Positions 3,284-44,895 of a stretch of DNA of 48,831 nucleotides are shown here, in pieces; the stretch's first letter is position 1; every line of letters starts with the position of its first letter. The DNA comes from Plasmodium relictum. Lineage: Eukaryota > Apicomplexa > Aconoidasida > Haemosporida > Plasmodiidae. Location: contig NW_021628673.1 in the NCBI RefSeq assembly GCF_900005765.1, forward strand, positions 1 through 48,831. Direction: 5' to 3'. The translations under genes were made by a program, and so were the position numbers. The notes beneath the pieces were generated by a model. That model did no database searches and was not told the DNA's origin. It saw nothing but the letters and a program-made list of their open reading frames with translations.

Positions 3284-4913
3284 GCAATGCAACATTGTAT
3301 TAAACAAAGCTTCTAAGAGTTAGTCTAGTTCTTGAAAATTCTAAAATTAATGTTATATTTTTATTTGTTATTATTCTTTTAAATTTGTCCTTTTTGTTTT
3401 CCAATACTTTATTTCGATAAATGGTTAATAAAAGATGTTATTAACCTTTTATAGTACATCAAGTTAGTTTACTAGTAGCGTATGCACAAGTTAGCCATGC
3501 ACTGACACTAGTTAAAAGAAAAAAATATATATATATATTATATATTTATTTTTGTTTTTATTTTTATATATTTTAATTAAAAAAAAAAAATTATTATTTT
3601 TTTTTTTTTTTTGATTGTCGGTTAACGTTTGTTTGAATTAAAAAGAGAATTAATTTTTACTTACATAAAAATTAATATATGAAAAAGTATAATGCTTATG
3701 TTGTATTCGATATATATATATAAAAATAACATTGAATAAATTGGAGCCTTAACTTTTGTTATTTGGTATAAATTGTGTGTTTTTAATTGAAAGAATATAC
3801 TTATTCTTTGTAAATAAAAACACACTTATAAAAGTAAACATATACCTGCTAAATAATACAGAATAATTTAATGTATAATATAAATATTATACATTATATA
3901 ATGCCTATATATATATATAATAAAAATAAGTATATATATATAAAAACGTATATTTAGTTATACATGCTCTTTATTAATTTGTTTATTCAGTACTCTAACA
4001 AAGTCATTAAGCAGGAAGTTAATAAATCAATAAACAAGTGCCAAATGACTTATCATATTAAAATTATCAAATATATTTTTGCGATATTTACAATCCTTTT
4101 AAAAATGATTTTTCTTCCCATAACAGTATATTCACAGGTCAATATAATCCTAGCGTTCTCTATTATCATATTATATTTTCTCCTCAAAACATTTCTATTA
4201 ATTCCTGAGTATTATTTTTTTCAAAAGAAACTTATTACAATGTTTGCATTAATTTCATAGATTCATAAAATTATATGTCTCTGGTTCTATCTAATAGTAT
4301 TTGATTCTTTATATATAAATAAATCTCTGTCTAAAACTTCTCAAAAAGTTTATCTTAGTCAAGCAATTTAGTTCCTTAAAATACAACTCATAAAGTGTTT
4401 ACTATATTCATCAATAAACGAATTTATAGTTTTCAATGTGCTTTTCATAGGCCCAATATTCGCAAATTTCAAAAATAGCTTATGTTTTTCTTCAAAATCC
4501 ACGAAACTAAATCTATATAATTGAATTTGTAAATTTAAAATATCTTTTATTTCTTCAATGAGTGTGAATGACGCCAAATTATTAGAATAAGCAGAAGAGA
4601 ATCCCTTCTTAATCAGCATGAGAGCTTTCATTTTGAATTATCTCAATACTTCCGCTGTTTCTTCAAATTATTTGAACAATTTAAAATAACCCTCCAAAGA
4701 TGTTTTACTAATCTTTGATAACCATTAAGATATAACAACCTTGTATATATTATCACCTTTCTTGAATACAAACTTGTAAGCTCCGTGTAAATTATTTATT
4801 TTTTAGAAAACTTTTAAATTCATCCTCCTTATTTCTTTATTCATTATAATGAAGTTTAAATCCAACGAATATTTAGTTACGTGTGCTTCATACATTCTAT
4901 AGTTGTATCTAAT
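3284..4913 (-). pseudogene. Retrotransposon gag, copy 1 (interrupted)
   Basis: Minus strand, in two pieces around solo LTR-A 3422-4029. The largest open part (4368-4631, 87 codons) contains MKSTLKTINSFIDEY, which aligns with KRSILKAMESFIIYC in copy 4 and NNILKATNYLIDEC in copy 2. The stretch before it, EEIKDILNLQIQL, aligns with NEITNMLYLQNHL in copy 4. Further upstream, LSKISKT is shared with copy 2. NMISHLALV next to 4035 is the second zinc knuckle (NMIDHLLPVC in copy 2), and after the LTR the frame resumes with RNKVLENKKDKF, matching QNKVLRNKEDEI. The LTR therefore landed inside the knuckle. Gag would form the retrotransposon particle and bind RNA. Stops and the insertion make it dead. Confidence 0.75.
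3422..4029 (+). repeat. LTR-A solo LTR, TSD ATAAA (reference copy)
   Basis: 608 bases, from TGGTTAATAAAAG (3422) to AATAAATCA (4029), flanked by ATAAA at 3417-3421 and 4030-4034. Hairpins inside it, in order: 3423-3446 (arms GGTTAATAA / TTATTAACC), an A/T-tract region 3510-3612, 3775-3825 (arms GTGTGTTTTT / AAAAACACAC with an inner AAGAATA / TATTCTT pair), 3870-3895 (11-bp arms AATGTATAATA / TATTATACATT), and the terminal palindrome 3970-4029. It carries GCACAAGTTAGCCATGCACT near 3484, a mark of the family. It interrupts gag of copy 1. Confidence 0.92.
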
Positions 4914-5520
4914 TGATTTATTAACTGAATGCTCGATAACCTTGCTAGTCTATAGAACAAACGTATTAATAAAAAGCATATGTGTGATCTCTTCTAGTTT
5001 TATATATTATAATATTAATTATCACAAAGGTTTATTAAATTTATAAGTTATACTTAATATCAACTTTATTATTAATTTATCACTCAACATATACACTATA
5101 CACTTATTTTGCAAAATATTATGTATCTTTGTTACATGCCAGATAATACATATCACGTTATGTTTAATTCTCTATCAAAAAAAAAAAAAAAATTATTATA
5201 CTTGTCCACATTTATTTTAATTTAATTTTTTTTTTTCGAGTATAATTAAAAAAAAAATAAAAATATTTAGTCTATGTCATACAAAAAAATAAAAAATAAA
5301 TAAACACTTTTAACCATTTAGTGTTTATACAAGAATTTGTAAATATTTTTTTTTGTATATATTATTATTTTACACATTTTTTTAGATTCGTACACTTAAG
5401 TACATGCATTTGAACGTTTGTATTTCTTTTGCATATCTTAAATGTACAACAAAAAACTTATTTATTTAATGTTGCTTCTTAACACCATTTAAAATAGGTA
5501 GATAATATCACTTATTTGAA
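4914..5520 (-). repeat. Probable 5' LTR of retrotransposon copy 1 (diverged)
   Basis: TGATTTATTAACTGAATGC at 4914 is a diverged reversed terminal palindrome (arm TTTATTAACT, loop with CTTGCTAG, arm ATTAATAAA ending near 4975). It sits directly before the gag leader of copy 1 on the minus strand, where the 5' LTR should end. The remaining ~540 bases have the A-tract/T-tract layout of the other LTRs but no close family match by eye. The outer end is not defined and 5520 is an estimate. A forward-type palindrome end (ACTAATAAATCA at 5775-5786) and a reversed LTR head (TTTTATTAACCA, ending 5950) lie further out, so more LTR remnants overlap this area. Confidence 0.5.
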
Positions 5521-6273
5521 AGCTCTTAAACATAATCTATAACATTCTATTAAGAATTTAAAAAGATCAATAAATCTCTTTATTAATCATATAGAAATAG
5601 AGCTTTTTTTATAAATTAATTTGTTAATGATTGAATGTTTAAGTATTAATAAAAACAAGAATTTTTATAAGCTATATAAATTTAAAGGTCAATTTTAAAA
5701 TATAGTTGATATAACTTTGTATATTTTTAATTAATTTATCTGTTGAATACTCTACAGAAGTTTTTCAGAAGACAACTAATAAATCAATAATAAGCTTTTT
5801 CTCAATATGATAATTATAATTAATTTCATTTTTTTTAATATTTTGATAATTAAAAAATAATATAAACAAAACTCATAATTACTACATATGCATGTATAAT
5901 GATAATAAATGCATAATAATATAAAAAAATATTTGTTATTTTATTAACCACAATTATGAACGCAGTTATACTTTTCATTTTAATGGTTAAAATTTGGTAT
6001 GTGAATATAACGAATAATTACTCTTGCATGTAATACAGTGAAAAGGAAATATAATTTATAATATTTTTTAAATTTTTAAAAAAAGGAAAAAAATGAAAAA
6101 ATAAAAAAAAAAATTGTTAATAACAAAAGTTGCAAATAATTTTTTTTATAAACACTCTAACAGGAAAAATAAGAAATGATAGCTATTATTTTATAGATGG
6201 ATTGTTATATTTTAAAATTAAAATAAATATAAATAAAATTAAAGTTTTATTCTAATTTATCAATCTTGTAAAA
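5521..6273. other. Spacer upstream of the two-exon gene, with LTR remnants
   Basis: No gene is seen. It contains a degenerate terminal palindrome at about 5735-5786 ending ACTAATAAATCA, and TTTTATTAACCA at 5939-5950, which is the outer end of a reversed LTR. From 5951 the sequence is plain A/T-rich spacer that must hold the promoter of the gene starting at 6274. No specific promoter motif could be recognised. Confidence 0.4.
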
Positions 6274-7353
6274 ATGAAGATTTCAAAGGTATTTTTTTTT
6301 CTTAACTTTTTGTCAGTTATCAAATTGTCAATGATATGCCTAGTTAAAATGGAACAAAATATAAAAGAATCTGGTAAAATAAAATTTAAAAAAATATAAA
6401 AAAGAAAACTAAATTTTAATACTAAAAATTATAGATATTTATCTTATATTCTCATCAATAATGTAAAAAGCATTACATATGTATCTATTATTTTTTAAAA
6501 TAAGGTTTGTACTAAAGATAACAGCTACTTTACATATTTACTAATTTTTTATTTTAAAATTAAAATATCAAAGTATTTTTTTTTAGATTATTTAATGGAT
6601 GATAATATATCAGAATCATTTTCATCACTTGCACTTAGAGAACCTACAATGAGTACATCAAATACAAGAGATGCTATGGTAAATACTGATATAACTCATT
6701 TACACTTTAATTATTTTTCTCCAATTGATATATTGAATTCCACTAGTGAAGAAATAGCAAATAATATTTTAAAAGAATTTTTGAAAGGTCCGATTGTGGA
6801 TGAAAACGATATAAAGGAATCTGAGTTTTATATGACGGATTATATTGAATCATTATTATTGGACCATTATGGATATATCTTGGAGGCTCATACAAAATAT
6901 ATATATGCTTTAATTAGTTATAAAATAGAAAGGATATATATGAAAGAGACAAGCAATCTTGAACTTGGGGATTGGGTACATAAATGTTTTATGTTAATGG
7001 ATGAAAATGAAAAAGAGAGGAGTTTTATGTGGAATAAATTGGTTGACAAAACAAATTATATAATTAGTCAAAATATATGGTTTGATTCAGTGAATGATGA
7101 TAAAAAAGATCAAATAATAGAAAAGTGCCACAGTATAATAAGGGAAAAGTGGCTTGAATTGGAGGAAAAAGAAATAACAGAATTTCTCTCTATGTTAAAA
7201 AGAAAACTCCGATTTACATTTTTTGTGTATTATTTTAGAAAAGCAAGAAAATTATGGGAACAACAGGAAAAACAAATAATGAAAATTTTGTTAGAGTATT
7301 TAGACTCCGTTGAAAAGGAAATAATAGAAAATAATCAGAAAGAACATAATTAA
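6274..7353 (+). CDS. Two-exon secreted/exported-type subtelomeric protein, family not recognised
   Basis: Exon 1 is 6274-6373 and starts MKISKVFFFLNFLSV, a signal-peptide-like hydrophobic stretch. The intron is 6374-6586, with GT at 6374 and a T-run ending TTTTAG at 6586. Exon 2 is 6587-7353. The split codon is G|AT (Asp), and joining keeps the frame into the ATG at 6595, giving 288 residues. A short signal exon followed by a long exon is the usual layout of exported subtelomeric Plasmodium genes. No clear PEXEL (RxLxE/Q/D) was found after the signal. The mature part is charged and helical with five scattered Trp (for example GDWVHKC, SFMWNKL, REKWLEL, RKLWEQQ) and no second membrane span. 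The C-terminal Trp/basic stretch recalls PHIST or tryptophan-rich families, but too weakly to assign. It lies between LTR clusters and looks intact. Confidence 0.75.
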
Positions 7354-7874: not shown

Positions 7875-8494
7875 TGATTTATTAATTGCCTGTTTGGCGA
7901 CGTTACTAGAGTACTGAATAAACAAATTAATAAAGAGTATGTATAACTAAATATACGTTTTTTAATATATATATATACTTGTTCTTATTGTATGTATAAT
8001 GGTTTCTTATGATGTATAATATTTATATTATACATTAAATTATTTTATATTGCTTAAAAGATATATGTTTACATTTAAAAATAAATTTTTATTTACAAAA
8101 AATAAGTATATTTTTTTAATTAAAAACATACACACTAAATTTATAACAAATAACAAAAAATAAGCTCTAGTTCATTCAATGTTATTTCGAAACATACACA
8201 TTAAATATAACATAAACATTATACTTTTTCATTCATGAAGTTTTTCATGTAACTAAAAATTAATTCTCTTTTTAATTTGAACAAACACCAACCGATAAAA
8301 AAAAAAAAATAATTTTAATTTTTTTTTTTTAATTAAAAAAATGTGTATACAATAAAATGAATAAGACAAAACAAAAAATAACTTTATATATTTTTTTTCT
8401 TTAACTATCGCCAGTGCATGGCTGACTTCTATTTTCCTAACTGGTAACTCATTTTATTTTTACAAAAAGTTATTAACAATTTTTTTATTAACCA
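7875..8494 (-). repeat. LTR-A solo LTR, TSD GTAGT
   Basis: Reversed LTR of 620 bases, from TGATTTATTAATTGCC (7875) to TTTATTAACCA (8494), flanked by GTAGT at 7870-7874 and 8495-8499. It is complete: terminal palindrome 7877-7940, paired tract around 8015-8040 (AATATTTATATTATACATT), head hairpin at 8465-8494. It is the closest LTR to the two-exon gene, 521 bases past its stop, so it could affect transcript ends there (inference). Confidence 0.92.
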
Positions 8495-9506: not shown

Positions 9507-10380
9507 TAACATAGTTATTAATTGACTATTAGATGACTTTTGTGGAGTATTGATCAAAGAATAAATTCACTGTCCTTAATTAATGTGCAGTTTTAAGTTT
9601 AGCCTTAATAAAAAAAAATTTATACATGTGTGAAGTTAATTAAATAGCACTAGCAAATTAGTAAGACTAAAATTTTATTTTGTCTTACTTAGGAGTACAT
9701 GGCAAGAATAACCAAAGCATTAGCACTGTGACCAACTTGGTATGTCTAATAAAATATTTTTTTTTTAGACACATCTCAGTTATAATTATAACAATATCTT
9801 TTTATTTTTTGGTTTATTTTTTTTCTTCGCATATATAAAAAAAAAGGTGATTTTATTAATTTTGGAATATATAAAAATTTAAAAAAAAATTATAAAGGAG
9901 CCCTAAAATTTGTTCTTTATTAACTTGAATATTCATTATTCTTATTAAAGTCATTGAATAACCAATTAATAAATCAAGTATCGAATAACTTATTTAATAA
10001 AGAGTATATAAAGTGAATTATACAAGTTTTTATAATAAAAATTGCAATATTTAAGATTTATATTTTAAATATACATAATATATAATTTATTTAAGATAAA
10101 AAAATATTATTAATGAAAATTTTCAATATAATAATACTTTTTAAATGAAATAAAGATATAACTTATTATTATATTTAATTTATAGTAAATTAATGAAATA
10201 CTCATGTTTATGATTTTCTATTCATCATAAATATTTCATCCCTAGAAAAACAATATATTTTTTTTTTTAAATTAATAATCATTTTCGGTTCATTAAAATA
10301 AAATAAAAATTAAAAGAAAAAAAATTACTATTAAAAATTAATTGATATCTCTTATGTTCTTTTAATTCATATTTTTTTTT
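9507..10380 (-). repeat. Degenerate reversed LTR split by LTR-C
   Basis: Before the LTR-C insertion, 9507-9550 reads TAGTTATTAATTGACTATT and on through ATGACTTTTGTGGAGTAT. After it, 9982 on reads CGAATAACTTATTTAATAAAGAG. Joined at the AGTAT duplication these form one reversed terminal palindrome, so the insertion hit its loop. The body that follows (about 10010-10380) is A/T-rich and too diverged for a family call. The outer end is uncertain. Confidence 0.5.
9551..9976 (+). repeat. LTR-C solo LTR (short form), TSD AGTAT
   Basis: 426 bases, from TGATCAAAGAATAAATTCAC (9551) to AATTAATAAATCA (9976), flanked by AGTAT at 9546-9550 and 9977-9981. It carries the family-C marks GGAGTACATGGC near 9690, ACTGTGACCAACTTGGTATG near 9725 and AGACACATCTCAG near 9768. 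It is about 100 bases shorter than the copy at 38480, mostly in the A/T-tract middle. The target was the loop of an older LTR terminal palindrome. Confidence 0.9.
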
Positions 10381-10390
10381 AGTTTATAGG

Positions 10391-10978
10391 TGATTTAACA
10401 ATTGTCAATTCAAAGACTTTGCTAGAGTATTGAACATACAAATTAATAAAGAGCATGAACAAATTATTATCTGATTTTTAATATAATACTTATTTTTTTT
10501 TTTTTTTTTGCTTTATAAATAAGTAAATTTATATAAATAATATTTAATTTGATTAAGAGACCTCTTTATTGTTTCAGAGTTATTTATTTATCTTTACAAA
10601 TGTACACTTTATTTTTATTAAAAAAATTAAATCTTCTTTTATACTGTGATTATGTAAAATATTTTAATTATAAATAAAAAATTTAATTTAAAGTTATTTA
10701 ACTGTTTTTAAGACAAAAAAAATAAATATAACAAAATAACATACCTTTTATTTATTTTAAATAAAAAGTTTAATAATACTTTCATATTTTAAAAATTTAA
10801 TCCCCTTTTTCAAGGAATTTTTTTTTTTTAAATCCTTTTAATGACTCAAAAAAAAAATTATTCAACTTTTTTTTTTGAACTAGTGCCAGTATATTACTAG
10901 CTCGCATTTTCTTGAATAGAAAAATAAATTTTATATCATAAAAGGTTAATAATATCTTTTATTAAACAATCGATAAAA
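10391..10978 (-). repeat. LTR-A reversed copy
   Basis: It runs from TGATTTAACAATTGTC (10391) to CTTTTATTAAACA (10978), 588 bases. The terminal palindrome is at 10393-10455 (CTTTGCTAGAGTATTGAAC in the middle), and the head region AAAGGTTAATAATATC is at 10941-10956. Flanking 5-mers ATAGG and ATCGA do not match, so the insertion is old or the ends were rearranged. The middle is diverged from the reference copy. Confidence 0.65.
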
Positions 10979-11209: not shown

Positions 11210-11817
11210 TGGTTAATAAAAAAGTGTTATTAACATTTCGTAATATAAAATTAGCTTACTAGTTAGTAAAATATAAGTCAGTCATACACTGATGCTAGTT
11301 AAAAAAAAAAAAATATATATATATATTTATTTATTTTTTTTTATTTTATTTTTTATATATCTTTGTAATAAAAATAAAAAAAATATATTTTTTTTTTTTT
11401 TTATATACATAAGTTGACGTTTTTGAATTGAAAAGAGAATTAATTTTTACTTATATAAAATTTTAAATATGAAAAAGTATAATGTTTATGTTATATTCAA
11501 TTTGTATATTTTGAAATAACATTGAATAACTCAATTTAATTTTTGTTAGTTATAAATGTTGCGTGTGTTTTTAACTAAAAGAATATATTTATTCTTTGTA
11601 AATTAAAACATATTTATAAAGTAAATATATGTCCGTTAGGCAATACAAAATTATTTAATCCATATTAAATGTTATATATTAAAATTATTTCCATATATAA
11701 TAAAAATAAGTATATATATATATTAAAAATCTGAATATTTAGTTATATATGTTCTTTATTAATTTGTTTTTTCAACATCCTAGCAAAGTCATTGAGCAAA
11801 CAATTAACAAATAAACA
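11210..11817 (+). repeat. LTR-A forward copy
   Basis: TGGTTAATAAAAAAGTG at 11210 to AACAAATAAACA at 11817, 608 bases, the same length as the reference copy at 3422. It has GCACT-type and GATGCTAGTT marks near 11290 and the terminal palindrome at about 11755-11817. ACATG precedes it (11205-11209) and occurs again at 11815-11819, overlapping the last bases. This may be a target duplication after loss of a few terminal bases, but it is not clean. Confidence 0.75.
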
Positions 11818-12477: not shown

Positions 12478-13153
12478 CTTGATTTAGTAATTGTCTGTTC
12501 AATGATCTATGAAGGAGTCAAACGAAAAAATTAAAAATGAGTTTGTAAATGATTTATTGACTATTCAAAGATTTTTACAATGCTTTGGACAATGAGGTCA
12601 ATAAAAAACATGTAAACAGGCCTCTACTTATTTTGTTTATTACTAATATTATTTATTACAAATAATTATTAACTATTTATAAATTTGATTTACTAATTGT
12701 CCATTCAATGACTTTGATAGAGTATTGAGCAAACAAATTAATAAAGAGCACATAAAGTAATCTCTACCAATTGTTTTTATTAAAAGAATATTTCTTTATC
12801 CAAAATATTATTTTCATATAATTACGGTATATAACATAAAATAAAGGATTTATTTCGTATTAAATTCACAATCTTTTAAATAAAAATATGATAACTAGTT
12901 ATTTTTATTATTTTTAACACATTAATTAATTTATAAGACATTTATAAAGCTTAATAAAAATTTCCACCTACTCTTACTAATGCCAAATATGTAATATATT
13001 CATTCATTCGATAGTATAACAAATATTATATTTTAAGAAAATGAATTCTTGTTAGTGATAAAAATTATATTTTTATCAAAAACAATTAACTTAAAAATTT
13101 TTAAAAATTCTATAATAAAAAAAAAATATTTTTTTTTGATATACCTATATTGT
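12478..13153 (-). repeat. Cluster of degenerate reversed LTR ends
   Basis: Three reversed terminal-palindrome remnants lie in a row: about 12481-12540 (AATTGTCTGTTCAATGATC), 12548-12610 (GATTTATTGACTATTCAAAG) and 12686-12750 (TTTACTAATTGTCCATTCAA to AAATTAATAAAGAGC). The last is well kept. It is followed by ~400 bases of LTR-like body sharing TTTTATATAATTACG-type text with 14790-14805, so it is probably a separate minor LTR family. No target duplication was found. Confidence 0.55.
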
Positions 13154-13526: not shown

Positions 13527-14105
13527 TGGTTAATAAAATTTGTTATTAACCTTTTGTAGTATACTAAGCTAGTTTACTATTCGTGTACGTACAAGTTAGC
13601 CATGCACTGACGCTAGTTAAAAAAAAAAAATATATAAAGTTATTTTTATTTTGTTTTGTTTATTTTATTGTATATGCATCTTTGTAATTAAAAAAAAAAT
13701 AAAATTATTTTTTTTTCGTTGTAGGAAAATGCTTTTTTCGAATTAAAAAGAGAATCAACTTTTACTTATAAAAACTTAAGATATAAAACGAATGTTTATA
13801 TCATATTCAATGTATATTTTTTGAAATAACATTGAATAAATTAAAGTTTTAACTTTATTAATTGTTATAATTTGTTTGTATGTTTTTAATTAAAAGAAGA
13901 TATTAATTCTTTGTAAATAAAAACTCATTTATAACAGTTAATAGGTCTATTAAAAGATGTAGTAAAATTTAATACAGATTAAATATTATGTATCATAAGA
14001 AAACATTATATATATATGTAAACTTATACTTAGTTATATATGTTCTTTATTAATTTGTTTGTTTAATACTCTAGCAAAATCATCAGCCAACCAATTAATA
14101 AAACA
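13527..14105 (+). repeat. LTR-A forward copy
   Basis: 579 bases, from TGGTTAATAAAATTTG (13527) to AATTAATAAAACA (14105). It carries TTAGCCATGCACTGACGC near 13597, the ATTCAATG/CATTGAAT pair near 13810-13845, and the terminal palindrome at about 14045-14105. Flanking 5-mers do not match (ATTAT versus TTTGT), in keeping with loss of the right part of the LTR-C it adjoins. Confidence 0.8.
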
Positions 14106-26751: not shown

Positions 26752-26804
<53 letters not shown>

Positions 26805-29111: not shown

Positions 29112-29112
29112 G

Positions 29113-30098: not shown

Positions 30099-30551
30099 TG
30101 GTGAATAAAGGACTTCATTTACCTTTTTAGTTTTTAAAATAATGAAATACAGAAAATAAAATTAATTAGTTCATGCAATATACTAGAAAAATGTATGTAT
30201 AAAGATATGTATACTAAAATATATGTAGCAATCTTTTATTATAGAGATATGTATGTAGAAAAGCATATCTGAAGACATATGTTGGTAGAAAGATAAGTTA
30301 TAAAAATAGAAGGAAAAACTAGTAAAATATATATAATACTTTTTATAAAAAAAAATAAATATACGAGACTTCATATTTTTATTTAGGTTGTTTATTTACT
30401 CAAAATAAACAAAAATATATAAGAAAGTAAGAATAGTTATAGTAAACTATTTTATAATAAATGAACTTAATGGAAAATTTTCTGCATTCTCTTTATTAAT
30501 TTGACTGTTTAAAATACTTTGAAAGCATTCAAACAGTCAATAAAAGCCTCA
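30099..30551 (+). repeat. 5' LTR of copy 4 (LTR-D)
   Basis: 453 bases, from TGGTGAATAAAGGAC (30099) to AAAAGCCTCA (30551). Compared with the 3' LTR it shares TTTTTAGTTTTTAAAATAAT near 30123, ATACTAGAAAAATG near 30180, CAATCTTTTATTATAGAGAT near 30229 and the terminal palindrome at 30487-30542 (arms TTGACTGTTT / AAACAGTCAA). The D family is shorter than A or B, and its palindrome pairs better than the others. Confidence 0.85.
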
Positions 30552-31676: not shown

Positions 31677-32461
31677 TTGGTTGCAAATAGAGTACTATGT
31701 GATGATTATGTTAGAATTTTTTGTCCGTATTGTGAAGAAATAGTTGAAATAAATAGAAAGGAAGTATATGCTTTATTAGACACGGGATCATATATATGTA
31801 CTATATCAGCCTTTTCCTCAAAAAAATTAGATATTGAACTCCACTTGGATTTCCTACTAATCATTATCAGTGGAATATGCATTGAAAAAAGTCATAGTTA
31901 TTAAAAAAGATTGCAATACATATGAAGTCTACATATGAACAAATAAGTACAAGATTTGCTACAAAGGATACATAAAAAATTCTCGTATTAATTTATGGTA
32001 TAGCAACAACATAATTAGGGTGTTTGCTATGAAGAAGAATAAAAACTATTTATATATATAATGAAAGTTATACCAGAAAAGAAAGAAAATGTAGGAAGAT
32101 ATATTCAAGAATTTATTTAATTTATTCAGAAATTTATTGATAGAAGTGATTTGATACCTCAAAAAAGAGAGAACTAAGGAAATTAGTAAAATATAACTCA
32201 GTACTTTGAGGAAATAAAATGAAAGGAGTATCAAGTAATTATGAAGTTTCAATTAAAGTACAAGGAAAACTACATAGATATAGTATCAGAACTTTGGGTA
32301 AAGAAAATTTAGTTGGAGTACATATAAAAAATAGATGAAATGGTAACAATAGGAATCATATGTGTAATTATTATGAAACAATTGACTTCATATATAGTCT
32401 TTAGAAAAAGGATGGTTAATGGAAAATAACAGTATATTATAGGTATTTAGATATATATGCA
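31677..32461 (+). pseudogene. Retrotransposon aspartic protease and linker, copy 4
   Basis: The open part 31677-31904 (75 codons) has EVYALLDTGSYICTIS, the best-kept protease active-site loop in the window (L-L-D-T-G-S), near residue 35. A frameshift follows, before the flap. Further on, KFLNIS-type text on the other strand is a shadow and is ignored. ECKENYIDIVSEL-like linker sequence leads to RT. Retropepsin-type protease would act as a dimer to cut the Gag-Pol chain. Confidence 0.7.
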
Positions 32462-33600
32462 TTGGATTATTTATATATTTTCCCACATATAAAACATATA
32501 TTTCAAACATTTTATGGCACCAAATGGTTTTCAAATGTAGATCTTAAAAACGGATCTTGGAACATAGGATTAGATGAAAATAGCAAGAAGTATACCATAT
32601 TTGTGGTATCTATATCTAGGGTATTTATATTTAATGTATCGCCATTTGGATTAAAAACTACTGCTCAATTTTAGAGAATAATGGAAAATGTACTTATGGA
32701 AATGATTCGAGAAAATTCCGTAGTTGTATATATTAATGACATCAATATTTTTATGAAAATAGTAATTGAACACTTTAAAGTATTACAAAAAATATGTAAA
32801 TTGCTTATCGATAATAATATAGAAATTAATACAAAGAAGTGTAAATTCTGTAAGATATCTATAACTTACATAGGACAAGTAATAACCCTTAAAGGAAATG
32901 TACTTTCATTAAGTATAATAAAAATCATTATTGAAGCAGATAGACCTAAATCTAAGAAACAATTTTTATTATTTTTAAGGAATACTAAAAATTATAGAAA
33001 CTATATAAAGAACTTGCCAGAATAGACTTCCAAATTAGTTATATTATTATCCAAAAATAAATAACTTATTTAAAATGAAAATCACTCTCAAGTATTTGAA
33101 CAAATAAAAAAAAAAGACTGAAATACTTTATCTTTTTCTGAAATTAAAAAACCTTATGCCATCTATACAAATGCACACGATTATACTATAGGAGTTGTAT
33201 TAACTCGAATATATGGTGATATTTTTCCAAAGGAGATTAATTTATTATTCATCAAGAGAAATGAATAATATTCAACGGAAATGGAGTACAATAGAAAAAG
33301 AATTATTTTTAATCTCTATAGTATGTGAAAAATTCGACTATTATACTAAAGGATCAAAGGCCTTGATTAAAAAAAATATTGCAAAGGTATCATAGGAATA
33401 TATTCTGCTAATACTGGAGAATTATATAGATGGAAGTCGAGATTATCTGAATTTAATTTGTAATTTGAACATTGATGGAATTAAAAATAGTTTGAATGAC
33501 TGAATTGCCATATATATAGAAAATAAACTTTATCTCTCATGTTACATGATACATTGTAGCAAGACATTAGAAGAATATAGGGATTTATGTATTATTCCAT
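32462..33600 (+). pseudogene. Retrotransposon RT and RNase H, copy 4
   Basis: RT: 32462-32674 has FYGTKWFSNVDLKNGSW (first catalytic Asp present) and SPFGLKTTAQF, then a TAG. 32681-33025 has VVVYINDINIFMK, the YxDD box with the first Asp changed to Asn, then KKCKFCKISITYIGQVIT and RPKSKKQFLLF (thumb). RNase H: PYAIYTNAHDYTIGVVL has Asn for the first catalytic Asp. 33213-33395 has RKWSTIEKELFL (Glu kept), then IKKNIAKV where KTDCKSL should be. LNDxIA near 33488 has TGA for the Trp of LADWIT. Reverse transcription would be impossible from this copy. Confidence 0.85.
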
Positions 33601-34930
33601 CTTCTTAAAAAATTGCTAGTAATATGCGAGAAGATAAAAATAATATTGTAAGAGACGTAGTGTAGAGAAATTATTTTCTTATGCATTACAGAACAAGAAT
33701 GTTATATATACCAAAAAAGGTTATAATCCATTTAATGAACTGGTTTCATTTTAGTAAACTTTTAGAATATTTTGAATCCAATAAAACATTAAAGAGAAAT
33801 AAACTATATTTTTGGTATCCTAATATTAGTAGTGATATTGAAGAAAATGTTACGAATTGTTTAGTTTTCTGGCTAATAGGTAGAAGTTCAAATATAATGA
33901 AAACTAATCATTATAAAAACCTAACTTATTTCATATTTTTTTACTAGATATTGTTGGATATAAAAAATGAAAATTGAAGAATATTTTATATATGTAGCAA
34001 TAAATCATTATTTACGTTTCATTCTGGATAGCCTTATTATGAGAGAGTCTACTGATAATGATGCATTTTTCATGATGAAACATAGCTAGGTTTTTATATT
34101 TAGGTTCCCAAGAAGTATTATAACGGATCATTGCTCTATTCCTATAATAAAAAAATTTAATACTAACACTCATTATTCTTATGGAAATGGTATTAACGAA
34201 AGTTCCCATAAAAGTCCTATTTATAAGTTTAAAATAATATATTTACTAAAGAGATAATTAGAAATACAATATTAATCTACAATAGTACATCTCATGGAGC
34301 CATAAGAGAAACACCTTATTTTTTTATGTTTAAATTGGGTTGTATATGCCCTGTTTTTTCAAGATTAGAACCTAAATTTATCTTAGAAATGACAGTGATT
34401 TATGTGAGTGATAGATGGAAGCAAGTGCATGTATATTTAAATGAACTCAAAGAAAGAAAAACAGTTGAAACTAAAGATATTAAAGTCATTAGTCTCATTT
34501 CATTTGAATTGTCTAAATACGAAAGAAATAAAATGAAGAATTAATTATAGAGGAAATAATCAGTGCAAACTATATGGATCTTTTCCATATAGAGAAACTA
34601 AAATTGAAGAAGTAAAATTAAAAGTAATTCTATATTAAAGATATAAAGAAATATAAATTATACTTACTAAGAATAAATTATTAAGCAATAAAATAAGGGG
34701 AAAATAAGAAACTCAGTTGATGAATACAATATAGGTTACTGAGGCAAATAAGGAAAGGCCAAAATTTATGTAGGAATAAAAACCTTAAAACTATGATATT
34801 TATGGAAGAAGTATTATTTCACCATATGATATAAATAATAATAAGAATAATAAAATAAATGAGGATAAACAAAAAGAGTTTTATATTATAAAACAGGGAA
34901 AAAATCAGAAGATAACACTATGTTTCCCTA
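33601..34930 (+). pseudogene. Retrotransposon integrase and tail, copy 4
   Basis: After TAG at 33663-33665 the open part 33681-33947 has the HHCC domain remains (LYFWYPNIS, VTNCLVF with the second Cys lost). LLDIVG near 33945, in a shifted frame, carries the first core Asp. VPRSIITDHC near 34107 carries the second. 34326-34544 (72 codons) is the integrase C-terminal domain region (VIYVSDRWKQVHVYLNEL). The tail NYDIYGRSIISPYDINNN near 34793 matches copy 2. Stops and shifts are frequent. Confidence 0.78.
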
Positions 34931-35403: not shown

Positions 35404-38242
35404 GTATTGATATTTGATAAAAACTGTAAAAAAGAAAATAGTCATTAGGGCATAAGAGTGTATCGCACAAATAAAAAAAGCAATGAAAAAATAGAAGTGA
35501 AATAATTTAATCTTTCAATAAGTGTCATTGTTGAGAAGAGGGTCATTTGTGGAGAAATTGTATAAATCGTTAAAAAGAATAATTGTAGTAGAATAGGTCA
35601 TTTGGCATGGATATGTTATCATATAGTCTTGAGACACAAAAATAATGACATCAATGGTAATATAATCAATAGAAACTATGACACTACTTTTAAATTGAAT
35701 AGAAATATCTCCAATATGCTAAAACTATATATAATTAAGAAATATGTAAATAGACAGAAAAATAATTGAAAAGAAGATAAAGCAAAAGTATCGTAATAAT
35801 AAACCAAAAGAAAGAGATGAGAAAATTGTTTGAAAAAGAAATAAAGTTGATGCATATATAAGTGAAGAGCCAGAAAAAGTCTTGAAATACAAATAAAATG
35901 CAAAGAAAATTGATGATAGTGAACTAGCTGTGATTAGAGTATAAAATGATGAAAATAACATATAATTATGTAAAATTTGGGGGAAAACAATGAAAATTAA
36001 AGAAAAAGGAATACGTGGGAGTATAAGAACATGATAGAAATTATGTACATTATCAGCACGCTCAGTAGGATAATTAAAAATTGATTTATTAATTTCTTGT
36101 TTAATTAGTTCGTTGAAGTATCAAATAAACAAATTAATAAAGAGCACGTATAACTAAATATATTGATCTTTAGTTCATATACTTATATATAGAAATATTT
36201 ATCATATATAGCATTTAAGTAGAATTAAGCAATTATGTATTACTTAGCAGGCACATTTTTATTTTGACAAATGTATACTTATTTACAAAGAATAAGTGTG
36301 TTCTTTTAATTCAGAAATACACACAAATAATTAAGTTATAACAAAAAACAAAATTAAATTATAAATGGTTCACTGTTATTTCAAAATATGCAAATCAAAC
36401 ATAAAAAAAAAGTTATACTTTCATTTATTAAAAGAAATAAAAGTTTTCTTATAGTTATTTTTCATACATTAATTTTTATATAAGTAAAAATTAATTCATT
36501 CTTCAATTCAAAAACTTAACAAAAAAAAAATGAAAAAAAGTAAAAAAAATATTTTCTTTTATATTTACAAAATATATATAGAATAAAATAAACAAAAAAA
36601 AAAAATATAGCTATTTATATATAAGTATATTTTTTTTTTAACTAGCTTCGGTGTTTGATTGACTTGTATTTTCCTGGTCACTAAGCTAACTTTATATATT
36701 ATAAAAGGTTAGAAACGTCCTTTATTAACTAAAAATAAAACCTGATTTAGAAATTACACCTATTAGAGCCCACATAATTTTTAATGATGGAAAGTTAGAA
36801 AATTTAAAATAGTTGTGATAAAAAGTGAAATACCTAACGTGCACACTAAAGCAAGATTCTCCACAATAAACCTAGGTAAATATCTCATATTACTTAATTT
36901 TGCTGTAATTAAATGAATAGGACTTAGTGTAAAGGATAAATATAAAAATAATGAGTATATAATGAAGGATAGATAAGAGAGCGAAGAAAATATAGAAATG
37001 CCCATTCTAGCAGTTATTCAAAATTTTATTGACAAAAGTGGCCTAATGTCTCAAAAGAATAAAGATGAGATAATGAAACTCTAAGATATGATTTAATACC
37101 GTTAAATAAAATGAAAGAAGTATCAAATAAAAATAAAGAGTCTATTAAAATACAAGGAAAACCACGAATATACAATCTCATAACTTTGAAGAAATGTTAG
37201 CTGAAACACATAAGAAAATAGATGAAATTGTAACAACGGAAGTCATAAATAGAATTGGTAGAGCAAAATAGACTCCTCGTATGGTCTTAGTTTGCAAAAA
37301 GGATTATCAATATAGAATAATAATATATTATAAATATTTTAATAAATATATATTTAAGCCATTTATTTGTTTTGCAACTTATAAAACATATATTTAAGAT
37401 ATTTCATGGAGTCAAATAGTTTTCAAAGGAAGATATGAACAACGTATTTTGGACCATCGGATTAGATGGAAATACTAGAGAGTATGTCGGATTTTTTGTA
37501 CCTGTAGGTGGAACATTTGTATTTAATGCATTTCCATTTGGAATAAAAACTATTCATACTCTATTTCAAGGAATAATGAAAAATGTTTTTATGGAGTTTA
37601 TCTAAGAAAATTGTATAGTTATTTATATTGATAATATCATTATTTTAAAAATAACCTTAATTAAGAGCATTAAAGTGTTAGGAAAAGTAATTTAGTTGCT
37701 TATCAGTAATAATTTAGAAATATAGAAAAGTATGTATTCTATAAAATGTCTATAAGTTATTTAGGTCAAGTAATATATCACAAAATAATTAGATCTTCAT
37801 TAGATAAAGCAACAACAATTATTTAGGTAGAACGACCTAAATCAAAGAAACAATTTTAATCATTTTTAACAGATTCTAATTATTACAGAAATTATAAAAA
37901 GAATTTTTCTCATTGAAGTTATAAACTAATTTCTTTGTTAGTTGAAAAAAAAAAGTCTGAATATATTGAGGAACACTCACAAATACTTAAAAAAAATTAA
38001 TGAAAGTGTCCGAAAAAACTTATTTGTCATTTTCTAAACTTTGAAAGACTTATATCATCTATATTGATATATCAGATTATATATGAACTGCATTAACTCT
38101 AATAGATAGTGAAAATGGTCATACTGATTTTATTCATTATGTATCTAAGAAATTAAATTATGTTAAACTAAAATGGGGTACAATTGAAGAACTATTTTCA
38201 ATAATCGTAATCGTGAAACATTCGATTATTACATTAGGGGAT
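35404..38242 (+). pseudogene. Retrotransposon copy 5: gag end, protease, RT, part of RNase H
   Basis: Most of gag is missing. NKCHCxEEGHLWRNC near 35538 is the first zinc knuckle with its His kept and the same C-X1-C spacing as copy 2 (x is a stop). CSRIGHLAWIC near 35585 is the second. The protease active-site area near 36010 is decayed. After solo LTR-A (36082-36731) the frame resumes with ITPIRAHIIFNDGKLENLK (protease flap). RT has FHGVK, stop TAG (37417-37419), FPFGIKTIH and IVIYIDNIIIL (YIDN, second box Asp lost). RNase H starts near 38040 and is cut in FDYYIRG at 38242 by reversed LTR-C. Integrase and 3' LTR are missing. Confidence 0.8.
36082..36731 (-). repeat. LTR-A solo LTR, TSD AAAAT
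   Basis: 650 bases, from TGATTTATTAATTTC (36082) to TTTATTAACTA (36731, last triplet CTA instead of CCA). Flanks AAAAT at 36077-36081 and 36732-36736 match; the duplication is low in complexity, so it is weaker evidence than the others. The interrupted protease text of copy 5 continues on both sides when compared with copy 2. Confidence 0.85.
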
Positions 38243-39159
38243 TGATTTGTTAATTGATTATTCAATGAATTTAATAAAAGTGATGAATATTCAACTTAAT
38301 AAAGAGCAAATTTTAGGACTTCTTTGTAATTTTGTATTAAAGTTTCTATATAACATAAAATTAATGAAATCACTTTTAAAAAACCCAAATCTATAATAAT
38401 TTAAATATAAATTCAATTGATGCAGTCCACTTGCACTAATTTTCTCCTCCATTTTCACGAAAAAAAAAATGTTTCTCCCTGGTTAATGAATAAATTCATT
38501 GCCCTTAATTAATATACAGTTCAATATTTATCTTATTAAAACTTATATATATATGTTCGTAATTAACTTCATAATACTAAACAATTATTTAAAACTTAAA
38601 TAATTATGTCTTATCTAGGAGTATATTGCATGCAAAAAGTTAAGTTGCTAGAACTTTGATCAACTTAGTGTGTAATAACTGTTTTTTTTTTTAAGACACA
38701 TATTGGTTATGATTATATTATGTTTTTTTTATTTTTTTTATTTGAAGTTTTCGTTACATGTTTTTTTTTGATGATAAATTTTTTTGGGAGAAAAATGAAA
38801 GAGGAAAGGATAGCAAGTGGGTTGCTTTTAATAAATTTTATTTAATTTATATAGACTTTCATTTTTTAAAGGTATTTTAATTAATTTTATATTATATAAA
38901 ATCTATAATACAAATTTATGAAGGTATCCTAAAAATTTGCTATCTATTAATTGGGTGTTCATTACTTTTATCTAAGTCTTTGAATATCCAATTAATAAAT
39001 CACTCCCAAACAAAAATTTAAAAAAAAAATTTGTTTGTTTTTTTTAAAAACATAAAAGAAAATATAAACGAAAAAAAAAAATAAAAAGACAATATAATTA
39101 TAATCTAAACGTATCTTAAAAAAAAACTTTTATTAGACACATTAAATTAGTCACAGTGT
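38243..39159 (-). repeat. LTR-C reversed, split by another LTR-C
   Basis: It begins TGATTTGTTAATTGATT at 38243 (family-C terminal palindrome to about 38310) and runs to 38479. It continues after the nested LTR-C at 39008 with AACAAAAATTT and the mark TAGACACATTAAATTAGTCA near 39135. The outer ~150 bases are missing because a forward LTR-C starts at 39160. Its inner end truncates RNase H of copy 5. Confidence 0.8.
38480..39002 (+). repeat. LTR-C solo LTR, TSD CTCCC (reference copy)
   Basis: 523 bases, from TGGTTAATGAATAAATTC (38480) to CAATTAATAAATCA (39002), flanked by CTCCC at 38475-38479 and 39003-39007. Because CTCCC is rare in this A/T-rich text, this is one of the strongest target duplications in the window. 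It lies inside a reversed LTR-C. Its terminal palindrome (38946-39002) has the family-C arms GTGTTCATTA / TGAATATCC. Confidence 0.93.
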
Positions 39160-39704
39160 GGTCAATTAATAAATCTATTGCCCTTAATTAATATGCATTT
39201 TAAACATTTAAAATTTAAATAATTATGTATCCTTTAGGAAAATATTGCATGCTAAAAAATTTTAGCTATTAGAACCTTGGCTAGCTTAGTGTGTCTAATT
39301 ATATTTTTTTTTAAGACACACCTCGGATATAATTATCTTATGTCTTTTTTTTTTATTTTTTTTTTTTTGCATGTTTTATTTTTTTATTTAATTTATATAT
39401 ATATTTTTTTTTTAAAAAAATTTTTTTTTATTATTTTTTTTTATTTTTGGGGATTTTTTTTTTTTGATAAAAAAGAAAGAGATTTTTGGGAAAAAAAAAT
39501 TTTGAATGGAAAAGATTAGCAAGTAGATTGCTTTTATTTTTTTTGAACTTTTATAGATTTTAAAAATCTTAGTGATTTAATTAATTTTGTATTATAAATA
39601 AAGTCTATAATACAAAATTATAAAGGAGTCCTAAAATTTGCTCTTTATTAACTTGGATATTCATTACTTTTATTCGAGTCTTTGAATATCCAATTAATAA
39701 ATCA
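39160..39704 (+). repeat. LTR-C forward copy, left arm of an inverted pair
   Basis: 545 bases, from TGGTCAATTAATAAATC (39160) to CAATTAATAAATCA (39704). The terminal palindrome is at 39641-39704. The poly-T middle at 39345-39450 is expanded. Flanks CAGTG and ATATT do not match. A reversed LTR-C without its own terminal palindrome follows immediately. Confidence 0.82.
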
Positions 39705-40160: not shown

Positions 40161-40169
40161 ATATGTAAT

Positions 40170-40241
40170 ATAAAAGTATATACACTAAAAATCAGTATAT
40201 ATAGTTACACATGCTCTTTATTAATTTTTTTGTTAAATAAT
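40170..40241 (+). repeat. LTR-A end fragment, cut in the palindrome
   Basis: ATCAGTATATATAGTTACAC then ATGCTCTTTATTAATTTTTT at 40210 is the last part of a forward LTR-A. It stops halfway through the terminal palindrome where the next LTR-A starts at 40242. Confidence 0.6.
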
Positions 40242-40838
40242 TGGTTAATAAAGGTTATTATTAACCTTTTTCAGTACAAAATGCTAGGTTACTGTACGTG
40301 TATCTACAAGTACCCATGCACTGACTAACAGAGAATATTATAATTATTGTAGTACACTAAGCTAGTTTATGTATGTGTATGTACAAACTAATTGTGTACT
40401 AACACTAATAAAAAAAAAAAAAATAGATATTTTTTTTTTTGTTTTTTATTTTTGTTTTAGAGATATTTAAAAAAAAAAAAAATAATTTTTTTTTTTTTGG
40501 TTTTTGTTTTTTCGTGTTTTAAGAAAATTTTTTGTTAATTATTAATTTAAATATCTTTTTAAAATTAAAAAGATAAGATTAATAATTTTTGTATAATCAA
40601 TGTTATATTTTAAAAATAACATTGAATAATGTAAAGATTTGACTTTATTAATTGTTATAGTTTGTATATACGTTTTTAATTAAAAGAATAAGTAATTCTT
40701 TATGATTAAAAACTCATTTATAACAATTAATAAGTCTATTAAAAGAGACAATAAAATTTTACTCAGTCATAAATGCTCTTTATTAATTTGTTTGTTTAAT
40801 ACTCTAGCAAAGTCATTAAACAAGCAATTAATAAATAA
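40242..40838 (+). repeat. LTR-A forward copy (subtype shared with 2475-3065)
   Basis: From TGGTTAATAAAGG (40242) to AATTAATAAATAA (about 40838). It holds two partly repeated head segments: TGTATCTACAAGTACCCATG near 40299 and GTACACTAAGCTAGTTTATG near 40352, the same doubled head found reversed at 2890-3060. Flanks do not give a clean duplication. Confidence 0.82.
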
Positions 40839-40841
40839 AGT

Positions 40842-41943: not shown

Positions 41944-41994
<51 letters not shown>

Positions 41995-42654: not shown

Positions 42655-43027
42655 GGAATTTTAAAACTTAATATATGAAAAAGTATAATGCTTATGTTGT
42701 ATTCAATGTGTATATTTTTGAAATGGCACTTAATAAATCAGAGTTTTATTTTTGTTATTTGTTATAAATTTTGCGTGTGCTTTTAAATAAAAGAATATAC
42801 TTATTCTTTGTAAGTAAAAATGAATTCATAAAAGTAAATATATATCTGTTAAGCAATACGGAATTATTTAATATTTAAATTAAATATTATACATTATAAA
42901 ATGTCAATATATATATAATAAAAATAAGTATATATAAAAAAAATCGTATATTTAGTTATACAAGCTCTTTATTAATTTGTTTGTTCAATACTCTAGTGAA
43001 GTCTTTTAACAGACAATTAATAAGTCA
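42655..43027 (+). repeat. LTR-A forward (head deleted), left arm of an inverted pair
   Basis: It begins inside the LTR near AACTTAATATATGAAAAAGT, lacking the first ~230 bases, and ends ACAATTAATAAGTCA at 43027 with a complete terminal palindrome (42966-43027). It is followed without spacer by a reversed LTR-A. Confidence 0.75.
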
Positions 43028-43427: not shown

Positions 43428-43494
<67 letters not shown>

Positions 43495-43556
43495 ATTTTA
43501 GTTTCAGTTTATATCTGATTTGCACTTTCTTAACTAGTAAGCTAATTTTATATATT
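43028..43556 (-). repeat. LTR-A reversed, right arm of an inverted pair
   Basis: It lacks its own terminal palindrome, starting near ATAACATTTAATTAAAATTA, and most resembles the subtype at 36082-36731 (AAGCAATTACGTATT near 43058, AAGTTTTCTTATAGT near 43267). A 62-base AT tract lies at 43430-43491. Its outer end is missing, replaced at 43557 by the next LTR. Confidence 0.75.
43430..43491. repeat. (AT)n microsatellite inside LTR-A
   Basis: About 62 bases of uninterrupted AT, the longest in the window, in the same LTR position as the tract at 41947. Confidence 0.95.
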
Positions 43557-44143
43557 TGATTTATTAATTTCCTTCTTAGCATGTATAACTAAATATACGG
43601 ATATATATATATACTTATTTTATTATATATATATATATATAATAGCTTTTTATAATATATAATATTTATATTATACATTAAATTATTATGTATTGCTTAA
43701 TAGATATATGTTTATTTTTAAAAATGAGTCTTTATTTACAAAAAATAAGTATATTCTTTTAATTAAAAACACACACATAAGCTTATAACAAATAACAAAA
43801 ATTAAGCTCTAGTTCATTCAATATTATTTTGAAATATACACATTGACTATAACATTAACATTATACTTTTTCATTTATTAAGTTTTTATGTAAATAAAAA
43901 TTAATTCTCTTTTTAATTAGAACAAACTTCAATCGACAAAAAAAATAAAATAAAATAAAATAAATTAATTTTTTTTTTTAATTACATAGATGTGTATAAA
44001 TAAAATAAACAAAAAAAAAAAATTACTTTATGTATATATATTTTTTTTTTAACTGGCATCAGTGCATGGCTGATTTGTACATACAAGACTAGTAATCTAA
44101 CTTTATGTACTATAAAAGGTTAATAACATCTTTTATTAACCAA
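43557..44143 (-). repeat. LTR-A reversed copy
   Basis: 587 bases, from TGATTTATTAATTTCC (43557) to CTTTTATTAACCA (44143). The terminal palindrome has lost its loop and one arm (TTTCCTTCTTAGCATGTATA). ATATT precedes it (43552-43556) and ATACT follows (44144-44148), a possible target duplication with one change. What follows is a bare right half of another terminal palindrome. Confidence 0.82.
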
Positions 44144-44895
44144 TACTCTAGTAAAGTCATTAAACGACCAATTAATAAATCAGTACTCTTTCAAAACCAT
44201 TGAGCACCCAGTTAATAAGTAATCAAATTTTTATGATTTACTTTTAATAATCTATATTCTTCTATTAAAATGTATTTTTAATATCATACAGATATTATTT
44301 TTAACATTCAATTAAATTATTGTATTAAAAAAAATAGTTTATCATATTTAAATATTAGTCCTATTTTTTAGAGAAAAGAGTTAAATACAAAAAAAGTATA
44401 CCTCATTAATAATCAATAATTAAGCAAACAAATTTCGTAAACTTTATTTATAATATATGTACTTAATTATTTTTATAAAAGAGAAAAAACGAAAAAACAA
44501 AAAAACAAAATGTAAAGTATATAACAGTGTATATTTAATTATATATTATGTTACAAAAAAATATAGAATATACATATATATTTAGAATTATTAAAAAATT
44601 GTATACAGGGCATTTATATAATATTGGCATATAACCTTTTTAAAAAATTTTAAATGAATTAACAAAAATAGAATTATAAAAAAAAAAAAAGATAAAATAA
44701 AAATGAAATAAAGGGAAATTAGAAACATGGGTAAATGAAATAACATATAAAAAAAAAAATAATAAAGAACAAAATATATCTTATAAAGAGAAATTAAAAT
44801 GTGTAATCTAAAAAAAAGTTTTAGAATACATAATATATTTAAAATGTAAAAATTAAAAATATATCTTAATTTTTTTCTTTCTAACGACTTTAACA
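44144..44895. other. Spacer with two half-palindromes; 3' flank of the RBP-like gene
   Basis: 44144-44185 (ACTCTAGTAAAGTCATTAAA through CCAATTAATAAATCA) and 44186-44222 (GTACTCTTTCAAAACCATTG) are right halves of LTR ends in a row. The remaining ~650 bases are A/T-rich and contain the 3' untranslated region of the minus-strand gene. The 101-codon frame at 44591-44896 is almost wholly hydrophobic low-complexity sequence and is not called. Confidence 0.5.

Follow-up and report, generated by a model that had tools for sequence, protein, structure and literature searches.

Long terminal repeats (LTRs) of a Ty3/gypsy-type retrotransposon family were found to insert preferentially at one nucleotide of a palindrome that closes other LTRs of the same kind, duplicating the sequence ATACT; the family's own LTR is an insertion hotspot, a trait of the self-targeting LTRs proposed for Tf1/Ty1. 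The analysis was based on a 48.8-kb contig (the window), very probably from Plasmodium relictum and packed with decayed Ty3/gypsy LTRs, and genome-wide searches were performed over the 22,602,028-base assembly (514 contigs). The palindrome occupies precisely the terminal 65 bp of the LTR, its position being that of U5. The element is of a known kind, with a real and precisely placed U5 hairpin, and its new part is the own-family, one-nucleotide insertion hotspot, a feature that the initial annotation of the window had missed.

A scan of both strands of the window with the 65-nt motif recovered 22 complete copies (15 of A/B type, five of C type and two of D type) together with several interrupted ones, in line with the initial annotation, which had described a dyad recurring more than 20 times in both directions at coordinates that proved right within a few bases. 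Copies of A/B type, accepted at 45 or more of 62 motif positions (types C and D score lower), start at 3965, 5722, 11750, 14041, 19991, 24382, 29671, 40774 and 42963 on the plus strand and at 2475, 4914, 7875, 10391, 12686 and 36082 on the minus strand; C-type copies start at 2179 (minus), 9912 (plus), 38243 (minus), 38938 (plus) and 39640 (plus), and D-type copies at 30487 and 35343. This recurrence is not due to chance, since the 17-nt loop motif matched the genome 1,786 times at up to two mismatches and its reversed control only twice. Conservation among 93 of 111 local copies (up to three loop mismatches, from 20 fetched stretches plus the window) peaked from about -28 to +37 relative to the loop, and reached background level past the CA at +37. 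The LTRs and palindromes listed from the window are given below with their target-site duplication (TSD), motif positions matched and z value of RNA folding, where available.

2475-3065, minus strand: A-type LTR, TSD GACAC (5/5); palindrome 2475-2539, motif 58/62, z -3.94
3422-4029, plus strand: A-type LTR with TGGTTAATAAAA...AATAAATCA ends, TSD ATAAA (5/5); palindrome 3965-4029, motif 55/62
7875-8494, minus strand: A-type LTR, TSD ACTAC (5/5); palindrome 7875-7939, motif 53/62
11210-11814, plus strand: A-type LTR, TSD ACATG (5/5); palindrome 11750-11814, motif 54/62
36082-36731, minus strand: LTR, TSD ATTTT (5/5); palindrome 36082-36146, motif 51/62
38480-39002, plus strand: C-type LTR, TSD CTCCC (5/5); palindrome 38938-39002, z -7.85
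2179-2243, minus strand: C-type palindrome, z -7.79
10391-10455, minus strand: A-type palindrome, motif 57/62, z only -0.42
12686-12750, minus strand: A-type palindrome, motif 58/62, z -2.07
14041-14105, plus strand: A-type palindrome, motif 54/62
19991-20055, plus strand: B-type palindrome at the end of the 5' LTR of a decayed internal region, motif 53/62, followed by a primer-site remnant
24382-24446, plus strand: B-type palindrome of what is probably the 3' LTR belonging to the element with the 5' LTR palindrome at 19991-20055, motif 53/62, z -2.00
29671-29735, plus strand: B-type palindrome, motif 58/62, its best RNA fold being a different one
30487-30543, plus strand: D-type palindrome with inner stem TTGACTGTTT/AAACAGTCAA, z -3.07
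39640-39704, plus strand: C-type palindrome with inner stem TTGGATATTCA/TGAATATCCAA, z -7.53 (66-nt stretch 39639-39704)
40774-40838, plus strand: A-type palindrome whose LTR sits inverted in another LTR's hairpin, motif 59/62, z -5.59, junction 40838/40839
42963-43027, plus strand: A-type palindrome, motif 56/62, z -2.57

The position of the palindrome was established from target-site duplications. LTR ends were anchored on the motif's final CA (140 of 217 ends), and the five bases following it were sought before any TG located 150-1500 bp upstream. Among the 58 matches obtained, 21 started with TGGTTAAT and four with TGGTCAAT (enrichment of about 51- and 36-fold, respectively). A 5-bp repeat preceding either of these starts was found in 25 cases at the CA anchor, compared with 0-3 cases when any of 24 neighbouring offsets, up to 12 bases away, was used instead. 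When both ends were required, at least four of the five TSD letters were equal in 56 of 128 start-end pairs and all five in 34, with lengths of 393-660 bp (mostly 500-660 bp). The LTR thus runs from TGGTTAATAAA to AATAAATCA with a 5-bp TSD, the TG...CA termini and short duplication typical of Ty3/gypsy LTRs, and since the duplications begin right after the CA of the motif, the dyad lies exactly at the LTR 3' end, as had been proposed.

Local palindromes were sorted, at the thresholds used, into 114 complete, 52 left-only and 27 right-only copies, and the incomplete ones shared a recurring break, in which ...TTCAATACT is directly followed by the inverted LTR end TGATTTATTAATT, or ...TTATTAACCA by ATACTCTAGCAAAG. 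ATACT stands on both sides of the break, constituting the 5-bp duplication, and the site lies at the boundary between the 5' strand of the stem and the apical loop. In the genome, the right-hand inverted junction pattern matched 105 places (reversed control, 0); among the 100 of these that were listed, 93 were inverted (two or three of them ambiguous), six were in the same orientation and one was intact. The right-hand same-orientation pattern matched 75 places (55 in the same orientation and 20 inverted; reversed control, 0), which brings the right-hand loop-edge junctions to at least about 148 places (93 inverted plus 55 in the same orientation). Left-hand patterns were less specific (240 and 252 matches, with 18 and 22 in the controls, respectively). 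As a comparison, two sites of the same palindrome located 8-9 bp away (centres 46 and 29 bp from the LTR end), which are among the next best by integrase motif and were predicted to be used about 0.55 times as often, were searched in the same way. The first showed no inverted and two same-orientation junctions, with 36 further places that look like intact palindromes, and the second four inverted and at most 15 same-orientation junctions, three of the latter lying 31 bp apart in tandem. The host part of the three junction patterns was similarly detectable (0.78, 0.79 and 0.66 at up to two mismatches).

The same position stood out among local junction flanks, of which 155 of 318 lay inside LTRs: twelve shared a single inverted position, 35 bp away from the end of the host LTR, while the maximum at any other position was three. 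Moreover, orientation at the loop edge was 12 inverted to 2 same, compared with 49 to 76 in the part of the LTR outside the terminal 65 bp. Filled loop edges occur in the window at 9551-9976, 40242, 40839 and 44142, and insertions are doubly nested at 29050-29140 and at 44142-44222; beyond the junction at 40838/40839 listed above, these features are the following.

9551-9976, plus strand: LTR inverted at the stem/loop edge of a host palindrome, TSD AGTAT (ATACT in host orientation, 5/5), host halves on both sides
29050-29140, plus strand: palindrome 5' half with an inverted LTR end inside, that end's own loop being broken again
40212-40241, plus strand: palindrome 5' half, its loop edge broken by a same-orientation LTR starting at 40242
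44143-44182, plus strand: palindrome 3' half, broken by an inverted LTR ending at 44142
44183-44222, plus strand: 3' half of a further palindrome, abutted by the LTR end at 44182 (insertions nested twice)

Host LTRs in 12 pairs compared were 70-86% alike, and ten local right-hand junctions had, by eye, ten different flanks past the host LTR end. Because of these differences, most local loop-edge insertions appear to be separate events, and segmental duplication was rejected as the sole source of the nested sites, some of the genome-wide places being duplicates nonetheless.

The target preference of the integrase was derived from insertions outside loops, which showed a T five bases before and an A five bases after the TSD centre (present at 28 and 32 of 34 sites, respectively), as well as A/T at -2/+2; the motif was symmetrised on 33 sites. 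In a leave-one-out evaluation of 53 insertions outside loops, use per site climbed from 2e-5 to 1e-2 with motif score. The A loop scored 4.3-5.5, its centre being the top position of the LTR, with a predicted use of 16 times the average, and the five best LTR positions were all located in the terminal palindrome (centres 38, 18, 17, 29 and 46 bp from the end). Under a wider model only 37 of 247,363 positions scored as high as the loop; under a narrower one 343 did, 21 of them loops. The loop-edge site is therefore the LTR's best match to the palindromic target preference of its integrase. In the fully flanked set, three of 142 loops were filled, about 2-6 times the use of equally scored sites elsewhere. 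Taken together, these results suggest that sequence preference explains much of the hotspot, while the gap to the sites 8-9 bp away and the orientation bias would ask for something more.

Folding of the palindrome as RNA was evaluated at three scales. Among 17 window copies, z was -2 or lower in 12 (best value -7.85), one of them, at 29671, by way of a different fold. Across 24 LTRs drawn at random from 54 (about 38 windows per LTR), the 3'-terminal 65-nt window was on average the most structured (mean z -2.83 vs. -0.49 elsewhere), ranking first in eight LTRs and first or second in 13. Of 20 copies chosen by their primer-site match, 15 were predicted to form the full 24-bp hairpin, TTTATTAATT...GTTTGTTTAATACT(CTAGCAA)AGT.ATTAAAC...AATTAATAAA with CTAGCAA as apical loop, at -16.0 to -16.9 kcal/mol in 14 cases and -13.6 in one; the remaining ones included a shifted hairpin at -12.0, one copy (L105) folding otherwise and two broken by another LTR. 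Copies with a well-kept primer site are thus computed to form a 24-bp hairpin. Repeats within LTRs at 2880-3081 and 3412-3565 hold hairpins of their own by eye, for instance around TAGTACACAATTAGTTTGTAC. Other roles of the dyad were considered and set aside. The notion of the whole LTR as a chain of hairpins was rejected, other inverted repeats in it being present and weaker on average. An RNA dimer signal was dismissed, the A loop having only the 4-nt CTAG, which by eye is not kept in C. An RNA polymerase III A-box was likewise set aside: by eye, TAGCAAAGTC fits the A-box, the C loop does not retain it, and no B-box was seen downstream. No run longer than 7 nt was found between tRNAs and the A palindrome, and a 10-nt run of C with tRNA-Arg was not judged special.

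The initial annotation had also claimed that families C and D keep the symmetry with other arm sequences, which it took to suggest that the structure, and not the bases, is selected. The first part stands: inner arms are GTTTAAT/ATTAAAC in A, TTGGATATTCA/TGAATATCCAA in C and TTGACTGTTT/AAACAGTCAA in D, different letters that all pair, and within 116 A copies the pair -4/+17 is T-A in 68, C-G in 27, C-A in nine, T-G in four and other in eight. The second part is only half right and finds no support as worded: the outer stem and the loop ACTCTAGCAAAGTC show conservation of their sequence, so that bases are selected too; the outer stem hardly varies and is thus uninformative on selection for pairing. 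Covariation was assessed in 69 aligned copies, comprising a random 40 of the 96 with A length, all 22 of the next length and seven selected window copies, including one D; 17 records whose lengths differed from these were excluded. Paired cells amounted to 87.9%, compared with 84.1% in shuffles and 24-52% in slid versions, double-change cells to 89 vs. 41.9, and covariation to 0.190 vs. 0.130, none of 500 shuffles reaching the observed value in any of the three. Exchanging arms among 135 copies lowered pairing from 7.44 to 7.22 of 12 (0 of 1000 exchanges as high), letter-shuffled arms giving 6.75. In our reading, pairing has been maintained by a few changes at the level of families and not by many independent events.

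Directly beyond the palindrome lies a primer-binding site complementary to tRNA-Ser(GCT), and the dyad thus adjoins the start of minus-strand synthesis, as initially proposed. A match of at least 11/16 was found at eight of 311 LTR ends and at none of 311 controls placed 30 nt further, and the offset from the LTR end was 2 nt in all ten ends with at least 10/16, a tRNA primer site just past the 5' LTR being a further Ty3/gypsy trait. Other tRNAs reached up to 7 (a Ser isoacceptor), 6 (Leu, His) or less (the rest), the set comprising 40 genes from 66 assembly matches, after leaving out 25 on a probably organellar contig (C514) and one nuclear match. The remnant in the window is:

20058-20073, plus strand: tRNA-Ser(GCT) primer-binding site remnant, 2 nt past the LTR end, 11/16 match

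C-type LTR ends in two fetched stretches, L045 (minus-strand index 5246) and L050 (minus-strand index 859), are followed by a site resembling a tRNA-His complement; families may thus use different primer tRNAs.

The primer-binding stretch is, in addition, extended, which the initial annotation had missed. A search with a 66-nt stretch of L045 returned 34 places, two of which are tRNA-Ser genes, and 22 of the other 32 were examined (L045, L050 and L091-L110). All 22 complement tRNA-Ser(GCT) over 41-59 nucleotides, and 20 of them into the anticodon arm; as the copies were identified through this very match, 22 of 22 does not represent a frequency. Copies with a preserved 5' end fall into two types, with complements running from the tRNA CCA to nucleotide 33 or 27. 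The longest, in L045, is 59/59 complementary (tRNA nucleotides 27-85), while L050 shows about 42 nt with two mismatches, cut by another LTR. At most one mismatch was present in seven stretches (L091, 53/53; L092-L095, 52/53; L097, 41/41 up to another insertion; and L045), and 14 of 22 retained both ends around a diverged middle (48-54 identities over 56-64 aligned letters). Position 26 of eukaryotic tRNA-Ser is usually dimethyl-G, which stops reverse transcriptase, and the type ending at 27 adjoins it; tRNA halves begin in the anticodon loop, where the type ending at 33 lies. A plausible origin of the extended complement is a primer copied past its usual stop.

The explanation we regard as reasonably probable is that of a U5 hairpin at the primer site that is also the integration target of its own family. 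In element RNA, the hairpin would stack directly on the duplex between tRNA and primer site and would be part of the structure that initiates reverse transcription, possibly also of packaging; the inner arms would change together because the hairpin serves in that initiation structure. In chromosomal DNA, the palindrome would act as a target in which integrase favours T..A...T..A across ATACT, and something further, whether extrusion or distortion of the hairpin apex or a protein bound there, might raise use of this site above that of similarly patterned neighbours. The element would thereby copy a landing pad for its own kind and stack up in subtelomeres. A bolder version, which seems possible and rather doubtful, holds that the stem/loop edge is a landing pad kept for the purpose, with integrase reading the extruded hairpin, or its inverted att-like arms, in old LTRs and inserting at one nucleotide, mostly in inverted orientation, so that Russian-doll stacks build up in subtelomeres and genes are spared, the same hairpin forming the priming complex with up to 59 nt of tRNA-Ser complement.

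Several results weigh against the explanation of hairpin and target as one. Plain sequence preference of the integrase accounts for part of the hotspot, and positions invisible to the 53-site model could still produce its excess over neighbouring sites. The 148 junctions are places and not events; for instance, two contigs (C470 and C480) share two junctions 178 bp apart in what looks like a duplicated segment, and only three of 56 fully flanked insertions lie in a loop, which makes it a hotspot and not an exclusive target. Loops of types C and D match the integrase motif poorly (scores of -0.5 and -2.0, respectively), and no loop-edge insertion was recognised in C palindromes among the local interrupted ones, the genome not having been searched for C. 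Concerning structure, five of 17 window copies, including the D copy at 35343, lack a z of -2 or lower, many copies being decayed, and the terminal window ranks worse than tenth in seven of the 24 sampled LTRs. The arm-exchange effect is small, and the fixed windows of that test misplace the C arms, which score only 5. The scoring of paired changes proposed by the initial annotation gave a divided answer, as two of its five measures, those that relatedness inflates the least, showed no excess over shuffles (8 vs. 7.7 pairs with a double change, and 31 vs. 31.1 further pair types), and the compensatory signal rests on few lineages.

The two functions may also be separated. Selection acting mainly on the DNA, with the palindrome as a self-target whose att-like arms tether intasomes to old LTRs as a safe haven and with RNA pairing as a by-product, would agree with a hotspot of one nucleotide at 148 or more places and far fewer at the comparison sites, with the top five motif positions all falling in the palindrome, with the local orientation bias at the loop (12:2 vs. 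49:76) and with the resemblance of the left arm to an inverted LTR end. We consider it unlikely, given that C and D keep pairing without an integrase-preferred loop and that the inner arms, mostly unneeded by the integrase motif, are the very ones that pair with different sequence. Conversely, integrase preference and high copy number alone might produce the hotspot, the palindrome having no targeting role and its position being coincidental. Insertion rate does climb smoothly with motif score, and fully flanked loops (3/142) are used just about 2-6 times as much as equally scored sites, as this reading predicts; yet the sites centred at 46 and 29, predicted at about 0.55 times the loop, hold 74-fold and about 8-fold fewer junction places, and inverted orientation is favoured at the loop but not in the rest of the LTR, so that we judge it rather unlikely.

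The dyad could instead be an RNA-processing signal, in which AATAAA in the 3' arm, conserved at 90-97% per base, marks polyadenylation at the LTR end together with the hairpin. This is very unlikely: only 2 nt separate the dyad from the primer site, and polyadenylation cleavage, at 10-30 nt downstream of the signal, would lie beyond the LTR; moreover, the same sequence is the integrase-bound end, and AATAAA is common in a genome of 80% A+T. A foldback element, or one akin to miniature inverted-repeat transposable elements, inserted at LTR ends would account for inverted arms with TG...CA termini, but the 5-bp duplications flank the whole LTR, with the motif at its 3' end. Duplications flanking just the 65 bp were not seen, though no systematic search for them was made; as the target duplications belong to the LTR, this extremely improbable reading was rejected.

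In addition to LTRs, the window contains decayed coding sequences of the element.

569-1439, minus strand: decayed pol pieces with an RNase H domain (Pfam RT_RNaseH 1.3e-15, RT_RNaseH_2 1.7e-10)
32420-33947, plus strand: decayed pol pieces, reverse transcriptase at 32420-33025 and integrase zinc-binding domain at 33666-33947

Pfam RVT_1 matched the piece 32675-33022 at 9e-8 and 32420-32671 at 6e-4 (below its cut-off), and Integrase_H2C2 matched within 33666-33947 (plus) at 2.9e-7. Reverse transcriptase, RNase H and integrase domains are thus all present in the window, as separate pieces not all of one element, and the order of reverse transcriptase (32.4-33.0 kb) before integrase (33.7-33.9 kb) fits Ty3/gypsy. 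Between LTR clusters, a 222-amino-acid open reading frame (27025-27693, plus) carries a Pfg27 domain, of a gametocyte protein family (Pfam 3.2e-25). Two further frames had no Pfam match: one of 252 amino acids near LTRs (6595-7353, plus), perhaps a member of a subtelomeric gene family, and one of 1310 amino acids near the window edge (44896-48828, minus), which by its look we take to be perhaps a large invasion-type protein.

If true, a structural target that is one nucleotide wide and carried by the element itself would let a retrotransposon live harmlessly, and by simple means, in the gene-dense genome of a parasite; it would also be a counterpart to targeting through protein tethers (Ty3, Tf1, Ty5). 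Such a target may help to explain why short-read assemblies of avian Plasmodium break up in subtelomeres, and the extended tRNA complement makes it possible to test whether a reverse transcriptase may copy beyond the modified base at which it usually stops in its primer. No earlier report of a one-nucleotide own-family hotspot was found in the literature on nested and structure targeting, U5 inverted repeats and own-LTR integrase targeting, nor one of extended primer sites in the literature on that point, coverage of subscription journals being limited in both cases.

The closest relatives are the Ty3/gypsy elements of avian Plasmodium (Bohme et al. 2018, PMC5880244). As far as the accessible text of that paper goes, it reports 498 scaffolds totalling 22.6 Mb for P. 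relictum and fragments of LTR retrotransposons in its subtelomeres, resembling our data in genome size, subtelomeric fragments and Ty3/gypsy domains, and a 15-nt tRNA-Ser(GCT) primer site in P. gallinaceum. It counts 344 transposable-element fragments in P. relictum, the LTRs of the most complete copy being 253 and 257 bp, whereas those found here are mostly 500-660 bp; the same accessible portion makes no mention of a terminal hairpin, loop-edge insertions or extended tRNA complementarity. As a side observation, the 1,786 genome copies of the loop motif far exceed the 344 published fragments, and LTR remnants seem under-annotated.

With retroviral U5, the element shares a structure directly upstream of the primer site and tRNA contacts beyond the 18-nt primer site, such as the avian sarcoma virus U5-TPsiC interaction cited in the accessible part of PMC3185550. 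It differs in that the 65-nt dyad reaches the very end of the LTR, has a family-specific inner stem and has its loop as insertion site. U5-IR and the self-priming structure of Tf1 are further U5 structures by the primer site. Templates pairing with several parts of the primer tRNA are also found in the bipartite primer sites of Ty3 and Ty1 and in the anticodon priming of Ty5 (PMC5371799, in the sections available); here, in contrast, one stretch after the LTR, unbroken or with a diverged middle, reaches from the tRNA 3' end to the anticodon arm (up to 59 nt).

Regarding targeting, Tf1/Tf2 of fission yeast with Sap1 (PMC5371812, available text) are alike in that the LTR carries a signal directing insertion, and single-nucleotide targeting appears in a title of its reference list; that source proposes that LTRs disperse insertion hotspots, favouring nested insertions. 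The signal there is the site of a host DNA-binding factor with fork-barrier activity, whereas the one described here, in an apicomplexan host, consists of a U5 hairpin edge that fits the integrase's own motif. Nested plant LTR retrotransposons and Tos17, according to the available portion of PMC6911290, share 5-bp duplications, a palindromic integrase preference and, in some gypsy groups, a preference for their own family; LTRs are not commonly targeted there and repeated nested pairs lie at least 50 bp apart in position, while in the family described here one nucleotide of the LTR is used at no fewer than about 148 places.

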